The notes under the pieces are model-generated. The model was not told the origin of the DNA, made no database searches, and saw only the letters and a list, made by a program, of their open reading frames with translations. From Salisaeta longa DSM 21114 (GTDB lineage Bacteria > Bacteroidota > Rhodothermia > Rhodothermales > Salinibacteraceae): 64,000 nt of DNA. Position 1 is the stretch's first letter. The number at the start of each line of letters is the position of its first letter. Of this stretch, positions 56,453 through 62,177 are shown in pieces. Location: positions 1,572,005 through 1,636,004 of the forward strand of contig NZ_ATTH01000001.1 of NCBI RefSeq assembly GCF_000419585.1, written 5' to 3'. Position numbers and translations under genes: made by a program.

Positions 56453-56596
56453 AATATACGCATTGCTAGGAAGAAGGCTACGCGTGGTCTTCCCAACCGC
56501 CCCTAAAGCCAAAGCGTTCACGCCCGCTGCCGACGGTCGTTACGCGTCCGCAACGAGGGAACAAATCGTTACACGACCGGCCGCTGGAGCGCGTGA

Positions 56597-56995
56597 TTAG
56601 GCGGCAGCTCCTTTCCATGAGCCGATCAGCGTGGTCGCGACACCGCCGAGCTCGTCTTGCGTTCGGTGCCGGTAGCATTCACCGAAGACAACGCCGCTGA
56701 GGCTGGTCAGAATCTCCACGCGAAGCGGCGGATGGCCCATGCGGATAATCTGATCTTGCTTTGTGAACAGAGCGGGCTGTAGGGCCGGAACGTTGAAGCC
56801 AAACTCAGCCAACGCGGCCACGATTCGCTTCCCGTTGTTCTCCGTCGACTCGATCCAGATGTCGATGTCGCCTGTGGTGGGGGGATAACCGTGGTAGGCG
56901 ACAGCGTAACCTCCGACGATGAGGTATTTGACCTCATGAGCGTTGAGCAACTTCAACAGTTCGCTGAATTCGGTCGGAAGCTGGATCGTAGCCAT
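56597..56995 (-). pseudogene. Nucleotidyltransferase-fold protein, probably frameshifted at its end
   Basis: 132 residues: 'LLKLLNAHEVKYLIVGGYAVAYHGYPPTTGDIDIWI' in parts shows the GG...D-x-D nucleotidyltransferase signature. In relatives the chain ends with a 'sGR.KDl' segment. Here the frame ends at IGSWKGAAA, while the neighbouring frame reads 'RLITRSSGRSCNDL' at the matching place (about 56560-56625), so a frameshift near 56620 is likely. It overlaps the small gene at 56934-57140, its usual partner, by 62 bases. A toxin-antitoxin role has been proposed for such pairs but is unproven. Confidence 0.65.
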
Positions 56996-57140
56996 AGTTG
57001 ATTTGGCGCATTTCCTCGAGTGCCGCGATACGGGCCTTGGGATCCAGTGACAACCAGTAGGTGCGGTCGTCGTCCTCAGCTTCAGCGAAGGAAGTCACCG
57101 AAAACGCTGAGGTATCCAGCTTGAAACGAGAATTTGCCAT
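56934..57140 (-). CDS. Small partner protein of the nucleotidyltransferase
   Basis: 68 residues, MANSRFKLDTSAFSVTSFAE..., with 'YWLSLDPKARIAALEEMRQINYGYDPASDRIQR', a conserved form found directly before genes like the one at 56597-56995. The stop lies inside the next gene, so translation is coupled. Function unknown. Confidence 0.75.
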   Translation of the reverse strand: MANSRFKLDTSAFSVTSFAEAEDDDRTYWLSLDPKARIAALEEMRQINYGYDPASDRIQRTVEVAQRS

Positions 57141-57383
57141 ACGAGCAAACGTTTGGTATTGGACGAGTGTATCTGTGTTACCGACTCGTTTGGAACAGGC
57201 TCCTGGGTGGTATAACGGGATAGCTCAGGTGCGATGGACGCCATGAACTTGCGATAGTAGCGGGATCAGTGCAAGCTTTAGAATTTGGCGTTGGCCCATC
57301 GTCAGCTGTAGCGTTTTGTTATGCCGCGTGATTGCCAAACAAAGTAGATAGCATAACACTTCTTTTTCCATATGTGCGCTTTT

Positions 57384-60300
57384 TCATTTGTCCGTAAGGC
57401 CGCGATGAGGGCGGTCAAACTCCGATTCTTCGAGATCATACCTGACATGACCGTCTGAGCAGTGGAAATGCTCGGGGCGTCGCTCTTCCATCTCTTTCCC
57501 GCAGACGTAGCAAAAGTGCTGGGCTCGCTCCAAGTGGCCAACCTTCTCGTTGATGTCCCGAATCAATCCTTTTGGAACGTACTGCCCGACCTCAATGAGC
57601 CGGTCTCTTCTCTTGACCATCTCTTCATGTGAGCAGCACGCTCCGCAATTTTCGTTCGTGCAAATCCACCATCCATTATCACATTGTGATGAATCCCTAC
57701 TGTCAATAACAGAACGGCATTTCGGATTGAAGCAATGGTGTAGGTACACCTCTTGGCCATGCTTTGCGCACGATTTGTTTCCGCAGTGAAAGTGCGTCAC
57801 GCGGTAGTATGCATAATTGCTACTTCGCGTCGAATCGAGAATGTGGTCACATTCCCGACAGTACAGCCGGTCCAGCAACTGCGCGAATCGATTGACCCAG
57901 CCGAGAAACCGGTGGTACTGCCCCATCTCAATGGTTTCGTACGGAAGATCTTCATCGACGGACAGATTAAGCAGGACGAGGAAATCCTCGAGGGTGTAAG
58001 ATTCCCAATTACTCTCTTCATGGCGTCCGTGACAACTGGCGTAACACTTCTTGTTGCGACACCACCAGAAATCATGGACGCCAAAGTCTTTACGCTTCGC
58101 TTTTCGACCCTCGCAGTACGTCGGGTCATCAAGACAACTCTCTCGTTCCGTCTCTACCAGATGCTTGCTGTTGGACCAATGCTTCTCGTCCTGGAGGTTG
58201 ATAAAGAAATCATGGTTACGTGCAAACTGGAAGACGGCTTCCCGCTGGTTTTCGTTCTCCGCCGGAACAGTCCAAACCTTCCGGTTGGGGTCGTAGCGTC
58301 GTCTAGGGAGACGCTTGACATTAGCAACGAGCTGCTTGTCGTACTCAAATGAGATAACGAATAGCCGCCGCTCGTTCTGCATGACCTCCTCCACCTCGCC
58401 CTTTCCTGGTCGCATCTGAAGTTCGGCTCTACCTTCACAACGATTAAAAATGTCCTGAATCCGAAGACGTCGACAGGGATTGTCTCTGGTGACGTGTCTC
58501 GCAATTTGAATCAGGTACCCCTCTCGAGGAAATTCTCCCGTTCGAGCGGCATGCTGAATCGTCTGGATGATGAGCTCGGCGGAGAGGCCCAGAGGAGGTG
58601 AAGCACCGGGAGGACTTTCGTTTCTGTCTCGCTTGTTTTCCTCCTCAAGTTGAAAGGACGAGCAGGCAGCTAAACGTTCCGGAGTGAGCGTCACGCGTTC
58701 CTGGGCATGCAGGTAGAACGCCTTCCGGAGGGCCTTCACTTGATCCGAATCCGAGAGCCAGGAAAGACCCTCCTGGAGCAGTGGTAATTCAAAGTCAGCG
58801 TCCTCCTGCCGATCAATCTCATCGTCAATCCACCAGGTAAGACGGACCACGGCACGGGCGGTCTCGGAAGACAGATTAGAAAGAGTCAGGCGGCCGGGGG
58901 CATGGTCCACCAGTTGGCGTGCCGCCTTTTGCACACAGCGTGCGGTCTCTCGATTCCTAACCTGAATGTCCTGCAGGTACGTGCACAGGGTGTGTGCGAA
59001 CGCACTGACTTCAAGAGCTCCGTTCTTGACCCAAGACTCACCAGTATCAATCGCATCCACCGTGAGACCGTCCAGATACTCCAAGATTCGAGGTTGTGGA
59101 TGCACGTCGAGATGTCCCTCCTGGTAGAGCTGAACGTGGGTGGGGACATCTACGTGCTCCACCAATGCAGACTCGAAATTTGCACGCCGCGCATCGGCCA
59201 ACGTCTGTTCGGCTGCAGCGAGAAGCCATCGGGCTTCTGGGTAGCACTTCGACTCCTGCGATGTGTAGATGACCGGGAGGAAATCGGACCCGCGGATGCT
59301 CGTTTGGTCGGACTCAGCGATCATGGGTAGATCCTCCAGGCGTGCCCTCAAAATCCTTTCTGCGATGGTTGGGTCTACCTTTTCGAGCACCGGCTCCAGG
59401 TCACTTCGGTCAAACTTGCTGGCATTCTGCAAGAGCCATTCTTCCGGAACTGCGGACAGGCAGCCTTTGCCGTAGAGAACAACCTGCGTTTTCTCTGTCG
59501 CCTCCTGCTGTAGAACCATCTCGCATTGATCACGCAGGGACTCTGTAGTCGTATCCCTGGTCTCACTCTCGAATGTCTCCGAATAGGACTGGACATCCTC
59601 AAGCCATTGGGAAAGAGTATCATTTCGCTCCTCAGTAGAGTCTTCCCAGGCCTTCAAAAGCTCGTTCGTTCGGCAGATAGCAAACCGGCGCCGTTGCTCG
59701 GATTCCAGGTGCTGGAGCAGATCGACGCGTGTCTTCTTTTTCCAACAGTCAGAGTAGCCATTGACGAACTCCGAGTATCCGATATCGACGAGGAAACCAT
59801 CTTCCCATAGCGAAAACGCCCGCTCTCTGCTCAGTTCGCTCTGCTTGTAGCAATGCTGTACGAGGCGTTCGACAGCCCCCACGTACCCGTCAATATCCTC
59901 GGGGATCTCCCTCTCGTGCTCCTTCCGAAGCGCCTTCAGAATCTCATAATGCTTATCAAGGAGAGAGACAGCGTTTGCATCCGCAGTCAGGAGGGCTTCA
60001 TTGATTATCTCGGTATGTCGATCAACCCAGCTCGCAAGATCTTCCTGTGAAAAGCGTCGAACAATGTCTCGAAGTTTTGTCCCTCGGATAGATCTCGACC
60101 GATAGGAGTGATAGGATAGATCGACAAGCTGGTCGGACCAGTCATCTTGACAGGCTTGGTCTACAAGCGTGTCAATTAGACCCGGTTCAAGCGTCGGGAG
60201 AAGCCCCTCCAGCCAAAGCATGGAGGCGACGCTACCTGGAATGACGTCGTGATCCAGCAGACTTCGGACTTCTTGACAGTACTTATTCCAAATACGCTCC

Positions 60301-61112
60301 GTCCACTCCGAGGGCAAAACTGCCTTTTCCAGCACGTTGCCGAGCAGCCGGAGGGCCGTTCCCCGTTTTCGGTCGGACCGCTCTTCGTTGCTCCAGGCAA
60401 CCATCTCGATGAGATCCAGCACCCCGCTGACGTCCGACTGTGGCACCAAGTGAGCCATAACGGAAACATTAGGTCTCAGACTTACACCCCCGAGCATCCA
60501 AAAAGCCAAATCCTCCGCAAACGAAACTGAAGGCCGGCCGAACTCTCTTAGGGATTGAACTCCGACGGCTTGGTACTCTCCCGGCTTCCGAGAGGGAACA
60601 ATGCGAAACGCGACGTACATGTCATCGGAAATAGATTCAGCCTCGACATTCCGCTCGTTGACGTATGCGTCATCGCCGTCCAGCACGTCGAGCGGCTTCA
60701 GCGGCTGAATGAAGCCGAATCCCTTGTTGGAGTCGAAAAACTTGACCTTTCCGATCTGCCAGTTCGCGCGCTCACTCTCGAGGTAGCTACGGAGCTCTTC
60801 GTGTTCGGAGGTAGAGGCAACCTCTTTGATAAGCGGTCCAAGATCATCAGGGTGATCGTGAAGAAGACGAATGTCTTTGGCCTTGAAGGTACCCGGCTTT
60901 CTTGAGGACGGAACTTTCTGAAAAACAATGTATGCATCGTCGACGAGTTTGTGGGAAGCCTGTACATCGCCCCCGATGTAGACGTCGTCCTCGTTCTCCG
61001 TGTAATCGGCAACGGTCAGATCTCGCGCGAAGCCAAACTCCTTCTTAGCATCGTAGAACTTTACTTTTCCAAGGCACCACTTTGATTTCTCTCGGTCAAT
61101 ACGTGTAACCAT
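57384..61112 (-). CDS. Large protein with two cold-shock domains, HARP-like segment and Cys-rich tail
   Basis: About 1242 residues (start at MVTRIDREKSKW; an upstream ATG at 61172 would add 20). Two cold-shock-like domains, about 12-75 ('LGKVKFYDAKKEFGFARDL') and about 115-190 ('IGKVKFFDSNKGFGFIQPL'), bind RNA or single-stranded DNA in known cases. About 200-900 is helical and unassigned. About 917-975 ('FEYDKQLVANVKRLPRRRYD' then 'RKVWTVP') resembles the HARP domain of SMARCAL1 and bacterial helicases, but no Walker motif is seen. The last 250 residues hold many Cys pairs (WCRNKKCYASC, YCRECD, FHCGNKSC, CFNPKC, WICTNENCGACC, CYVCGKE), so several zinc ribbons. Lower GC than the host (line 57661: 24 of 60). 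A DUF4145 gene lies 105 bases upstream. Possibly a defence or nucleic-acid-sensing unit (inference). Confidence 0.8.
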   Translation of the reverse strand: MVTRIDREKSKWCLGKVKFYDAKKEFGFARDLTVADYTENEDDVYIGGDVQASHKLVDDAYIVFQKVPSSRKPGTFKAKDIRLLHDHPDDLGPLIKEVASTSEHEELRSYLESERANWQIGKVKFFDSNKGFGFIQPLKPLDVLDGDDAYVNERNVEAESISDDMYVAFRIVPSRKPGEYQAVGVQSLREFGRPSVSFAEDLAFWMLGGVSLRPNVSVMAHLVPQSDVSGVLDLIEMVAWSNEERSDRKRGTALRLLGNVLEKAVLPSEWTERIWNKYCQEVRSLLDHDVIPGSVASMLWLEGLLPTLEPGLIDTLVDQACQDDWSDQLVDLSYHSYRSRSIRGTKLRDIVRRFSQEDLASWVDRHTEIINEALLTADANAVSLLDKHYEILKALRKEHEREIPEDIDGYVGAVERLVQHCYKQSELSRERAFSLWEDGFLVDIGYSEFVNGYSDCWKKKTRVDLLQHLESEQRRRFAICRTNELLKAWEDSTEERNDTLSQWLEDVQSYSETFESETRDTTTESLRDQCEMVLQQEATEKTQVVLYGKGCLSAVPEEWLLQNASKFDRSDLEPVLEKVDPTIAERILRARLEDLPMIAESDQTSIRGSDFLPVIYTSQESKCYPEARWLLAAAEQTLADARRANFESALVEHVDVPTHVQLYQEGHLDVHPQPRILEYLDGLTVDAIDTGESWVKNGALEVSAFAHTLCTYLQDIQVRNRETARCVQKAARQLVDHAPGRLTLSNLSSETARAVVRLTWWIDDEIDRQEDADFELPLLQEGLSWLSDSDQVKALRKAFYLHAQERVTLTPERLAACSSFQLEEENKRDRNESPPGASPPLGLSAELIIQTIQHAARTGEFPREGYLIQIARHVTRDNPCRRLRIQDIFNRCEGRAELQMRPGKGEVEEVMQNERRLFVISFEYDKQLVANVKRLPRRRYDPNRKVWTVPAENENQREAVFQFARNHDFFINLQDEKHWSNSKHLVETERESCLDDPTYCEGRKAKRKDFGVHDFWWCRNKKCYASCHGRHEESNWESYTLEDFLVLLNLSVDEDLPYETIEMGQYHRFLGWVNRFAQLLDRLYCRECDHILDSTRSSNYAYYRVTHFHCGNKSCAKHGQEVYLHHCFNPKCRSVIDSRDSSQCDNGWWICTNENCGACCSHEEMVKRRDRLIEVGQYVPKGLIRDINEKVGHLERAQHFCYVCGKEMEERRPEHFHCSDGHVRYDLEESEFDRPHRGLTDK

Positions 61113-61217
61113 TACAGAAAATGCAGTCAGCACGGATGAACTGATGATGGAGCTATTAGCACAGAGCGGCATAACGGGGGAGCTCTGCGGCGGCTTGCCG
61201 TCCGCAGCAGCGTGAGG

Positions 61218-61871
61218 TTATGTGGCTTTCCCGTCTTGATTACGACTTGACGAAAGCTGCTTAACTTTATAATCGAGTTCGTAGATGTAATTCAATAGGT
61301 CCTCGCAGATCTCAATCGCGATTCGGAGATCATTTTCCGAAGGAGCGCCCAGTTCGTGAACTGCTTCGTTACCCATGAATCTGAACTCGTGGAGGTCTTC
61401 CACGATGTGATCAGGGAGTATCTGGTCCAGCTTCTCTATTCTCTTCTCTAAGTTGTCACCGGACTGACCTATGTCTTGATCTTTGCAGATTCCCTCAACG
61501 AGAGACCTAAGCCCAACAGCCGTTAGGATTCTGGTCTCTAAATTGAAGGCCTGAGCTGTCTCCCGGTAGATTTTGTTCAACTTCTCTGGTAGCTGCTTAA
61601 AACGCTTTGCATCAACTAGCCGCTTTTTCCTCTTCGGATAGTAGCTAGATGACCATAACTGTTCACCACTCTCAGGATCGTGATCACCCGCACGTGTCCA
61701 ACTAACTTCAAGCGTTCCCTCTTCGCAGCCAGCACAAATGAGGAGTCTCTGCCTACGCCTTTCCCAGAAACCCGTGTAACGTCCAGCACGGATATCAGGG
61801 TACTCTGTGGTATGCTCAGCCTTGATTTGATGATTTGTCTCTGAACCGCAGTTATTGCAAAAGACTCTCAT
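61218..61871 (-). CDS. DUF4145 protein with N-terminal zinc ribbon
   Basis: 217 residues starting MRVFCNNCGSETNHQIKAEH. Cys5-Cys8 and a second pair in 'LLICAGCEEG' make a zinc ribbon. The C-terminal part shows DUF4145: 'AVGLRSLVEGICKDQDI', 'NLEKRIEKLDQILPDHIVEDLHEFRFMGNEAVHEL'. DUF4145 occurs in restriction subunits and other defence proteins as well as alone. Same strand as, and 105 bases before, the cold-shock/HARP protein; both are AT-richer than neighbours and probably arrived together. Confidence 0.85.
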   Translation of the reverse strand: MRVFCNNCGSETNHQIKAEHTTEYPDIRAGRYTGFWERRRQRLLICAGCEEGTLEVSWTRAGDHDPESGEQLWSSSYYPKRKKRLVDAKRFKQLPEKLNKIYRETAQAFNLETRILTAVGLRSLVEGICKDQDIGQSGDNLEKRIEKLDQILPDHIVEDLHEFRFMGNEAVHELGAPSENDLRIAIEICEDLLNYIYELDYKVKQLSSSRNQDGKAT

Positions 61872-62177
61872 GTCCTACTGATATGAAGAATAATCTTGGT
61901 TCCTCGAAACCACATAACCTATACTTATATCAACATACTTGACATAGCACGCATCCATCATTTTGCGCAAACACCTGAAAGTCAGTGCGATGGGTGTATC
62001 GGGCCCGGTGCTATGTCAACAAAGTGGGCATAGCGCGTTATGCGATATCGCATGTAGCCACGGGCCAGCATGCGAGGGTAATGCTTACAAAATGTACAGG
62101 CGATCTGAAAGAACTGCAAACGGAAGGCCCTGGCAACGGTCCGCGCGGGCGACAGCCGCCCGCAAACGGAGCCATTG
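61872..62177. other. Edge of the low-GC segment
   Basis: About 300 bases upstream of the DUF4145 gene. TTGACA near 61939 is a possible -35 element without a clear partner. ATGCGATATCGCAT at 62040-62053 is a perfect 14-base palindrome. GC rises sharply after about 62090. No gene seen. Confidence 0.45.

Follow-up and report, generated by a model that had tools for sequence, protein, structure and literature searches.

We analyzed a 64,000-nt stretch of the Salisaeta longa DSM 21114 genome (NZ_ATTH01000001.1, positions 1,572,005-1,636,004; hereafter the window, to which all coordinates of the block described here refer), in which a preliminary description had singled out two adjacent genes of foreign composition. 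Gene 1 encodes a DUF4145 protein, and gene 2 encodes a very large protein with cold-shock, HARP-like, and cysteine-rich segments. Both open reading frames (ORFs) are intact, lie on the minus strand, and stand where they had been placed. They belong to a block in which a copy of an integron attI region is followed by the gene 1 cassette, the giant gene 2 cassette, and a decayed nucleotidyltransferase cassette, and which lacks an integron integrase gene (intI) (Table 1). The G+C content is 47.2% in gene 1 and 53.5% in gene 2, compared with 62.7% in the window, and a recount of two 60-nt lines that had been cited as low in G+C gives exactly the figures reported (24/60 in line 57661 and 28/60 in line 60001).

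Table 1. Features of the cassette block and of the gene 2 protein, in window coordinates.
Feature	Position	Strand	Evidence
attI region copy (integron recombination platform)	61913..62046	-	94% (126/134) to L019:8859-8992; identity ends at GTTATG core
Gene 1, first cassette (744 bp); zinc ribbon and DUF4145 (HEPN clan), 217 aa, PD-T7-4-like	61218..61871	-	
attC site 1, between genes 1 and 2	61168..61224 (scan match 61170-61222)	-	Scan score 12; model R2 49.3 bits, E 3e-10
Gene 2, second cassette (3.96 kb); cold-shock/cold-shock/helical/HARP/zinc, 1262 aa annotated	57384..61172	-	
Cold-shock domain 1, residues ~31-105	60858..61082	-	Cross-match to second cold-shock domain of relative L018, E 2e-7
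Cold-shock domain 2, residues ~136-208	60549..60767	-	Pfam CSD E 4.5e-5 (residues 141-158)
Helical middle region, residues ~216-915	58428..60527	-	Low-confidence model
Probable HARP/XPB damage-recognition-like domain, residues ~923-993	58194..58406	-	Pfam HARP, PDB profile, model
C-terminal multi-cysteine (zinc) module, family-defining, residues 1018-1262	57387..58121	-	18-sequence alignment
attC site 2, after gene 2	57209..57325 (scan match 57212-57322)	-	Scan score 11; model R2 63.1 bits, E 6.5e-14
Third cassette, decayed; 68-aa ORF and truncated nucleotidyltransferase	56597..57140	-	NTP_transf_5/Aminoglyc_resit E 3e-4
16-nt direct repeat, outer copy over ribD stop codon	62173..62188	-	Two copies only in whole genome
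16-nt direct repeat, copy at far end of block	56461..56476	-	Two copies only in whole genome

The integron character of the block is seen in both its attI copy and its attC sites. The sequence that the attI copy matches is the stretch between the intI pseudogene of this genome and its first cassette, and in the comparison divergence starts exactly past the recombination core, ahead of gene 1. An untrained scan of the window for attC sites returned two strong sites only, one following each of the two genes; the best of 100 region shuffles scored 9. Both sites are in cassette orientation at gene 3' ends and show the R''/R' and L''/L' boxes as well as extrahelical bases; their spacers measure 5 and 6 nt. 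The DNA fold of the spacer between genes 1 and 2 has the classic attC outline, and site 2 was recovered by the scan only with one stem mismatch permitted. A covariance model that included the window sites (R1) found 22 attC sites genome-wide, among which the sites used for its training are bound to score. For this reason a second model (R2) was trained only on the other attC sites of this genome, with none from the window; applied to the window, it returned exactly sites 1 and 2 and no third. Beyond this pair the genome holds ~20 further attC sites. The attI-like stretch was itself tried as an attC site and rejected (score 8, with shuffles reaching up to 9), and is recognized instead by its identity to the intI-adjacent sequence.

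The intI pseudogene (L019:8200-8778; G000:C1, ~3.126 Mb) is the best copy in the genome, and attC sites of the same type as those in the window lie after it. It covers model positions 1-210 of 315, is devoid of the catalytic C-terminus, and contains an in-frame TGA within its HLPxALARKYPNA stretch. No intI gene was found within the block. Because intI is absent there and broken in its best genomic copy, we regard the block as an integron remnant and not as a complete integron. Further partial intI-like matches occur at C1:783.7 kb and elsewhere in the genome. As a separate observation, the first cassette of the main array (L019:8990-12620) is a large two-gene cassette with an apparent RecQ-like helicase, whose C-terminus resembles by eye a phosphoribosyltransferase, and a DprA-like gene, and it may itself be a defense unit. 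Another attC array (L020:8266-10947) encodes, again by eye, a 264-aa protein, a 310-aa restriction-endonuclease-like protein, and a MazF-like protein, and given this content the cassettes of the genome appear rich in defense and toxin-antitoxin genes. Chromosomal integrons store defense genes as cassettes (PMC12409362).

The layout bears directly on the relationship between the two genes, which had been presented as a single two-gene antiphage system. Given that the attI copy ends at its core before gene 1 and that an attC site follows each gene, we interpret genes 1 and 2 as two separately acquired integron cassettes. Integron cassettes are acquired one by one, and adjacency is therefore uninformative about joint function. 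The idea of one system draws on the fact that the genes are adjacent, co-directional, and both low in G+C, and on DUF4145/PD-T7-4 being itself a defense family (PMC9519451). Against it stand the attC site that splits the genes and the attI copy that precedes gene 1, together with a neighborhood survey in which a DUF4145 neighbor was recognizable in none of the 27 loci holding gene 2 relatives (some of these loci are cut short). Each gene is also patchy on its own, and gene 1 has a plasmid relative that is not accompanied by gene 2. The two-gene reading is thus already largely refuted, and we give it hardly any credence. Partner-free homologs in housekeeping contexts, which the preliminary description itself had named as evidence against it, occur in part as far as the pair is concerned, since some gene 2 relatives stand alone among ordinary genes. 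The steady co-occurrence that had been proposed as a check was not seen in the 27 loci, whereas the connection with defense islands does emerge, several relatives of gene 2 lying in or beside defense systems.

Taken alone, gene 1 is a zinc-ribbon DUF4145 protein, as had been described. The DUF4145 domain (Pfam E 9e-13) lies behind an N-terminal CxxC...CxxC (C5, C8, C46, and C49), and the PADLOC model for PD-T7-4 matches residues 5-198 (E 2.6e-10). DUF4145 belongs to the HEPN superfamily (PMC3710099); R164 and H172 of gene 1 sit within RFMGNEAVH. PD-T7-4 is a single-gene defense protein (Vassallo et al. 2022, PMC9519451), and a defense role for gene 1 is supported by this family resemblance. 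There is no close relative of gene 1 in 114 genomes of the order, and a sigma-70 scan upstream of the gene found nothing.

The gene 2 cassette measures 3959 bp from attC core to attC core. Because the annotated ATG lies inside the attC R' box and the relatives begin directly at the cold-shock domain (CSD), the true start is probably the ATG at 61112 (M21), which would give a protein of ~1242 aa. Most of the architecture first proposed for this protein is borne out. The two N-terminal CSDs are recovered by a Pfam match and by the cross-match to L018; the second also matches the PADLOC model CSD_V, the CSD protein of type V retrons (E 5.5e-6), and both repeats carry a ribonucleoprotein-type K-G-F-G-F/I core (KGFGF/KEFGF). 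The Pfam CSD and HARP matches of gene 2 both fall just below the Pfam cut-offs, and the CSD of L018 itself gives a Pfam E value of 3.5e-11. The ~700 residues of the middle region are mostly helical in a model of the N-terminal half with a predicted local distance difference test (pLDDT) score of 55, a quality that does not permit a fold search, and self-comparison of this region gave no clear repeats. The earlier reading that gene 2 has neither a helicase nor a nuclease motif agrees with our finding no Walker A or HKD motif, no helicase family by Pfam, and no recognized enzyme motif. A match to a CARF/HEPN model (weak CARF, PADLOC) was a single hint, absent on repeat in ten relatives, and was set aside. 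At the C-terminus, where at least six cysteine pairs had been noted, 17 cysteines follow residue 1019; of these, 13 are conserved in 16 or more of 18 relatives, and nine positions are invariant in all 18 sequences (N1094, C1105, C1108, C1130, C1147, D1157, R1159, C1171, and C1176).

The HARP-like segment holds up in both profile and structure comparison. Pfam places HARP at residues 938-971 (23.9 bits, E 3e-5; cut-off 25), and the domain is also matched at the homologous position of two relatives (E 0.003 and E 0.006). When the C-terminal half of the family is used as a profile, the best PDB match is the crystal structure of the SMARCAL1 HARP domain, 4o66 (E 0.005). AlphaFold modeling of residues 800-1262 gave a mean pLDDT of 77, with most of the HARP stretch above 90; with this model, Foldseek ranked 4o66 second (probability 0.69, E 0.42), and VIA-align found the N-terminal domain of Archaeoglobus XPB (6p66; Z 5.9, root-mean-square deviation 1.8 A over 55 residues) as well as more XPB entries, among them an XPB-Bax1-forked DNA complex. 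The Foldseek and VIA-align rows for this half of the protein cover the HARP stretch only, and rows from plasmid records were left out of the structure-model alignment. Each match alone is weak (Z below 8); because three methods agree on one place, we consider the predicted segment probably real. In SMARCAL1, HARP is required for structure-specific DNA work (PMC4035279).

On sequence grounds, gene 2 founds an unnamed family with an N-terminal cold-shock OB domain, a long helical middle, an optional HARP, and a C-terminal multi-zinc module. Apart from CSD and HARP, the family is covered by no model in PADLOC-DB 2.0.0, Pfam, or NCBIfam; in PADLOC, gene 2 has no whole-protein match, just the short CSD_V match and the weak CARF match, and the ten relatives searched gave CSD_V matches alone or none. 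Nothing was found in the literature on this family, on its operon, or on HARP in a defense role. The earlier view of the gene 2 protein as undescribed is supported. Among 40 related genomes there is one full-length relative only (L018; 34% in its best segment), and relatives beyond the close ones were recovered only with the C-terminal zinc-module alignment as query. Single-protein pattern scans found none in genome or viral contigs, and tblastn found none in phage records. Recovered by the C-terminal module, the relatives come from Enterobacterales, Bacteroidota, and Firmicutes and range from 590 to 1308 aa; a cold-shock-like segment stands at the N-terminus of most, and the multi-cysteine module at the C-terminus of all. 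The family is rare, being present in 7 of 394 genomes of the phylum and 3 of 244 of the class. Within Escherichia coli, 198 of 5426 complete genomes (~4%) carry a relative at 80% coverage or more, and other genomes hold remnants of it, which were cut by an insertion sequence (IS) in all three inspected.

The genomic contexts of the relatives argue for a role in defense. In Enterobacterales, on Klebsiella plasmids and E. coli chromosomes, the relative lies within the order hsdM-hsdS-YecA-like-relative-hsdR-metallopeptidase-DUF262, and in Prevotella the order is hsdM-hsdS-hsdR-relative. One genome (G312) has it in a BREX operon, PglX...relative-PglZ-BrxL, with gaps of ~30 bp around it; in another (G310) it stands ~0.3 kb downstream of the Wadjet genes JetC-JetD, and in a third (G106) it follows a type III restriction endonuclease and a PtuA-like ATPase (Septu). 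A WYL gene, an ATPase gene (HATPase/AAA-type matches), and a third gene precede it in Roseburia and Bacteroides, an FRG protein (a PADLOC candidate) is near it in G216, and a PsyrT/DpdF-like helicase is convergent with it in G174. Restriction-modification (RM), BREX, or Wadjet contexts were found for relatives L016, L017, L024, L030-L036, L049, L050, and L051. In our judgment, chance would hardly bring the family next to canonical systems in five contexts, several times within one operon, and the genomic evidence makes the link of the gene 2 family to defense fairly firm. There are precedents for genes embedded in such loci: PrrC is an RM-embedded gene that acts as an independent defense (PMC3874165), and TgvAB and BrxU are embedded in RM or BREX loci as defenses in their own right (PMC11411939).

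Some of these loci deserve mention for themselves. In Roseburia and Bacteroides (L027:3696-7049, L026, and L023), a conserved trio of a WYL regulator, a HATPase/AAA-type ATPase, and an iSTAND-like gene always precedes the relative, and the trio and the relative may constitute a four-gene defense system of their own. In E. coli, the type I RM island beside yecA (L081:4628-17079 and L084) varies, its cold-shock gene being intact or IS-cut, and includes DUF262, PD-(D/E)XK, and TIR genes among its neighbors. Near the L018 relative, on the opposite strand, lies a gene for a 1655-aa protein with ankyrin repeats apparently throughout (L018:12-4979).

We hypothesize that gene 2 serves in phage defense, as an accessory or single-gene factor that binds nucleic acid without catalysis, a proposal to which we give somewhat better than even chances. 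Of the nucleic-acid-sensing or antiphage unit suggested at the outset, the link of the gene 2 family to defense and its nucleic-acid-binding modules would be retained, whereas the joint system with gene 1 would not. The cold-shock pair may hold single-stranded DNA or RNA arising in phage growth, the HARP/damage-recognition-like domain may read forked or branched DNA, and the zinc module may bind either nucleic acid or a partner. By engaging intermediates of phage replication or transcription, the protein would then block them, via binding and not catalysis. The relatives would complement the RM, BREX, or Wadjet system whose operon or cluster carries them, and gene 2 in the window would act alone. 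More tentatively, and with odds that we place below even, there could be an unnamed class of large, motorless, nucleic-acid-binding antiphage proteins that form a complementary layer of immunity in RM and BREX operons or beside Wadjet, sense phage replication structures, and occur also as stand-alone integron cassettes. Several observations weigh against our proposal. HARP is seen only in the subclade nearest the window protein and therefore cannot be the core of the mechanism of the family, and the helical middle, given its poor model, could conceal a catalytic domain. Relatives L028, L029, and L037 are solo among ordinary chromosomal genes, L018 is solo near a phage integrase, and L048 has no recognizable defense neighbor; the window copy likewise has no BREX, Wadjet, or type I or type III RM gene in or beside its block.

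The next-best fit, although unlikely in our estimation, is that the protein is a latent abortive-infection effector, a guard silenced by the host RM, BREX, or Wadjet system and freed by phage anti-restriction, like PrrC in EcoprrI, with the zinc module or the helical middle harming the cell. The placement between hsdS and hsdR and between PglX and PglZ resembles that of PrrC in its type I operon (PMC3874165), and the invariant D1157 and R1159 (D-S-R) of the zinc module could be catalytic. However, no nuclease, ATPase, or other toxin motif is recognized, and the copies in the window and in L018, L028, L029, and L037 are intact without an adjacent host system.

Some relatives that are solo in ordinary contexts, and the occurrence of cold-shock and HARP domains in maintenance proteins, would suit a housekeeping or stress nucleic-acid chaperone of replication-fork or RNA maintenance that was passively captured as a cassette and lies near defense genes only by chance. 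We find this improbable given the very patchy distribution of the family in the class, the phylum, and E. coli, its mobility (plasmids, the integron, and the phage-integrase neighbor of L018), and its position inside operons of several unrelated defense systems. Co-occurrence with many different systems could also be read, together with the frequent action of cold-shock domains on mRNA, as the mark of a regulator or assembly factor of the host defense operon, such as an RNA-binding protein that controls the expression of hsdR, pglZ, or jet. Yet an operon-specific regulator would not be expected alone, nor with such unrelated systems, and 600-1300 aa is an unusual size for such a role, so that we consider this more improbable still.

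The block is flanked in the window by ribD and a gene for a WD40-like/peptidase protein, a junction that is not conserved across the 14 family relatives read. The third cassette agrees with the decayed nucleotidyltransferase pair that had been noted beside the two genes. It comprises a small ORF (56934-57140) and a nucleotidyltransferase (56597-56995) that seems to lack its C-terminal part, and it resembles a decayed toxin-antitoxin-type pair; its attC is degenerate, and on inspection the 5' half alone of an attC-like sequence is readable. A perfect 16-nt direct repeat, CTTCTTCCTAGCAATG (minus-strand reading), flanks the attI-plus-cassettes block, with ~0.004 expected by chance in the region, and may mark how the block was inserted. 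An Rfam search gave no match.

If our proposal is correct, gene 2 would represent an unrecognized defense family that PADLOC, Pfam, and NCBIfam have missed, despite its members being carried inside a type I RM operon in the 198 E. coli genomes; because these members exist, a direct test in a laboratory strain would be easy. It would also show that one integron cassette can hold a very large (4-kb) probable defense gene, and this in a bacterial family whose integron cassettes have received little study. A further question would then be what a motorless protein with HARP and cold-shock domains senses.

The block resembles integron cassettes, clusters of attC sites lacking integron integrases (CALIN), and attI-bearing remnants in its attI copy with recombination core and its co-oriented, low-G+C cassettes, and its attC sites are of the same type as those of the intI-side array of this genome. 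It differs from complete integrons in having no intI, and its gene 2 cassette differs from usual integron cassettes in its size, 3.96 kb being far above the usual length. Gene 1 aligns with PD-T7-4 along nearly the whole length, the N-terminal part included, and carries DUF4145, although the match is weak (38 bits). Its arginine and histidine are spaced as R-x7-H, whereas the spacing in HEPN nucleases is usually quoted as R-x4-6-H. The N-terminal CSDs of gene 2 resemble cold-shock proteins and the CSD protein of the type V (Se72) retron, and the gene 2 family gives weak matches to the Se72 effector and to PADLOC CSD_V models; these proteins are, however, small and single-domain, and neither a retron reverse transcriptase nor a noncoding RNA is seen at the gene 2 locus. 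The predicted HARP is shared with the SMARCAL1/HARP annealing helicases (by Pfam, the 4o66 profile, and the predicted fold) and with the XPB damage-recognition domain (predicted fold, 6p66, 2fwr, and 6p4f). In contrast to the annealing helicases, gene 2 has no SNF2 or other helicase motor and couples HARP to cold-shock and zinc modules. Finally, although no anticodon-nuclease or GmrSD motif is recognized in the gene 2 family and gene 2 in the window is free of any host system, its relatives take the same kind of place as PrrC, TgvAB, and BrxU, between hsdS and hsdR in type I RM operons and between PglX and PglZ in BREX.

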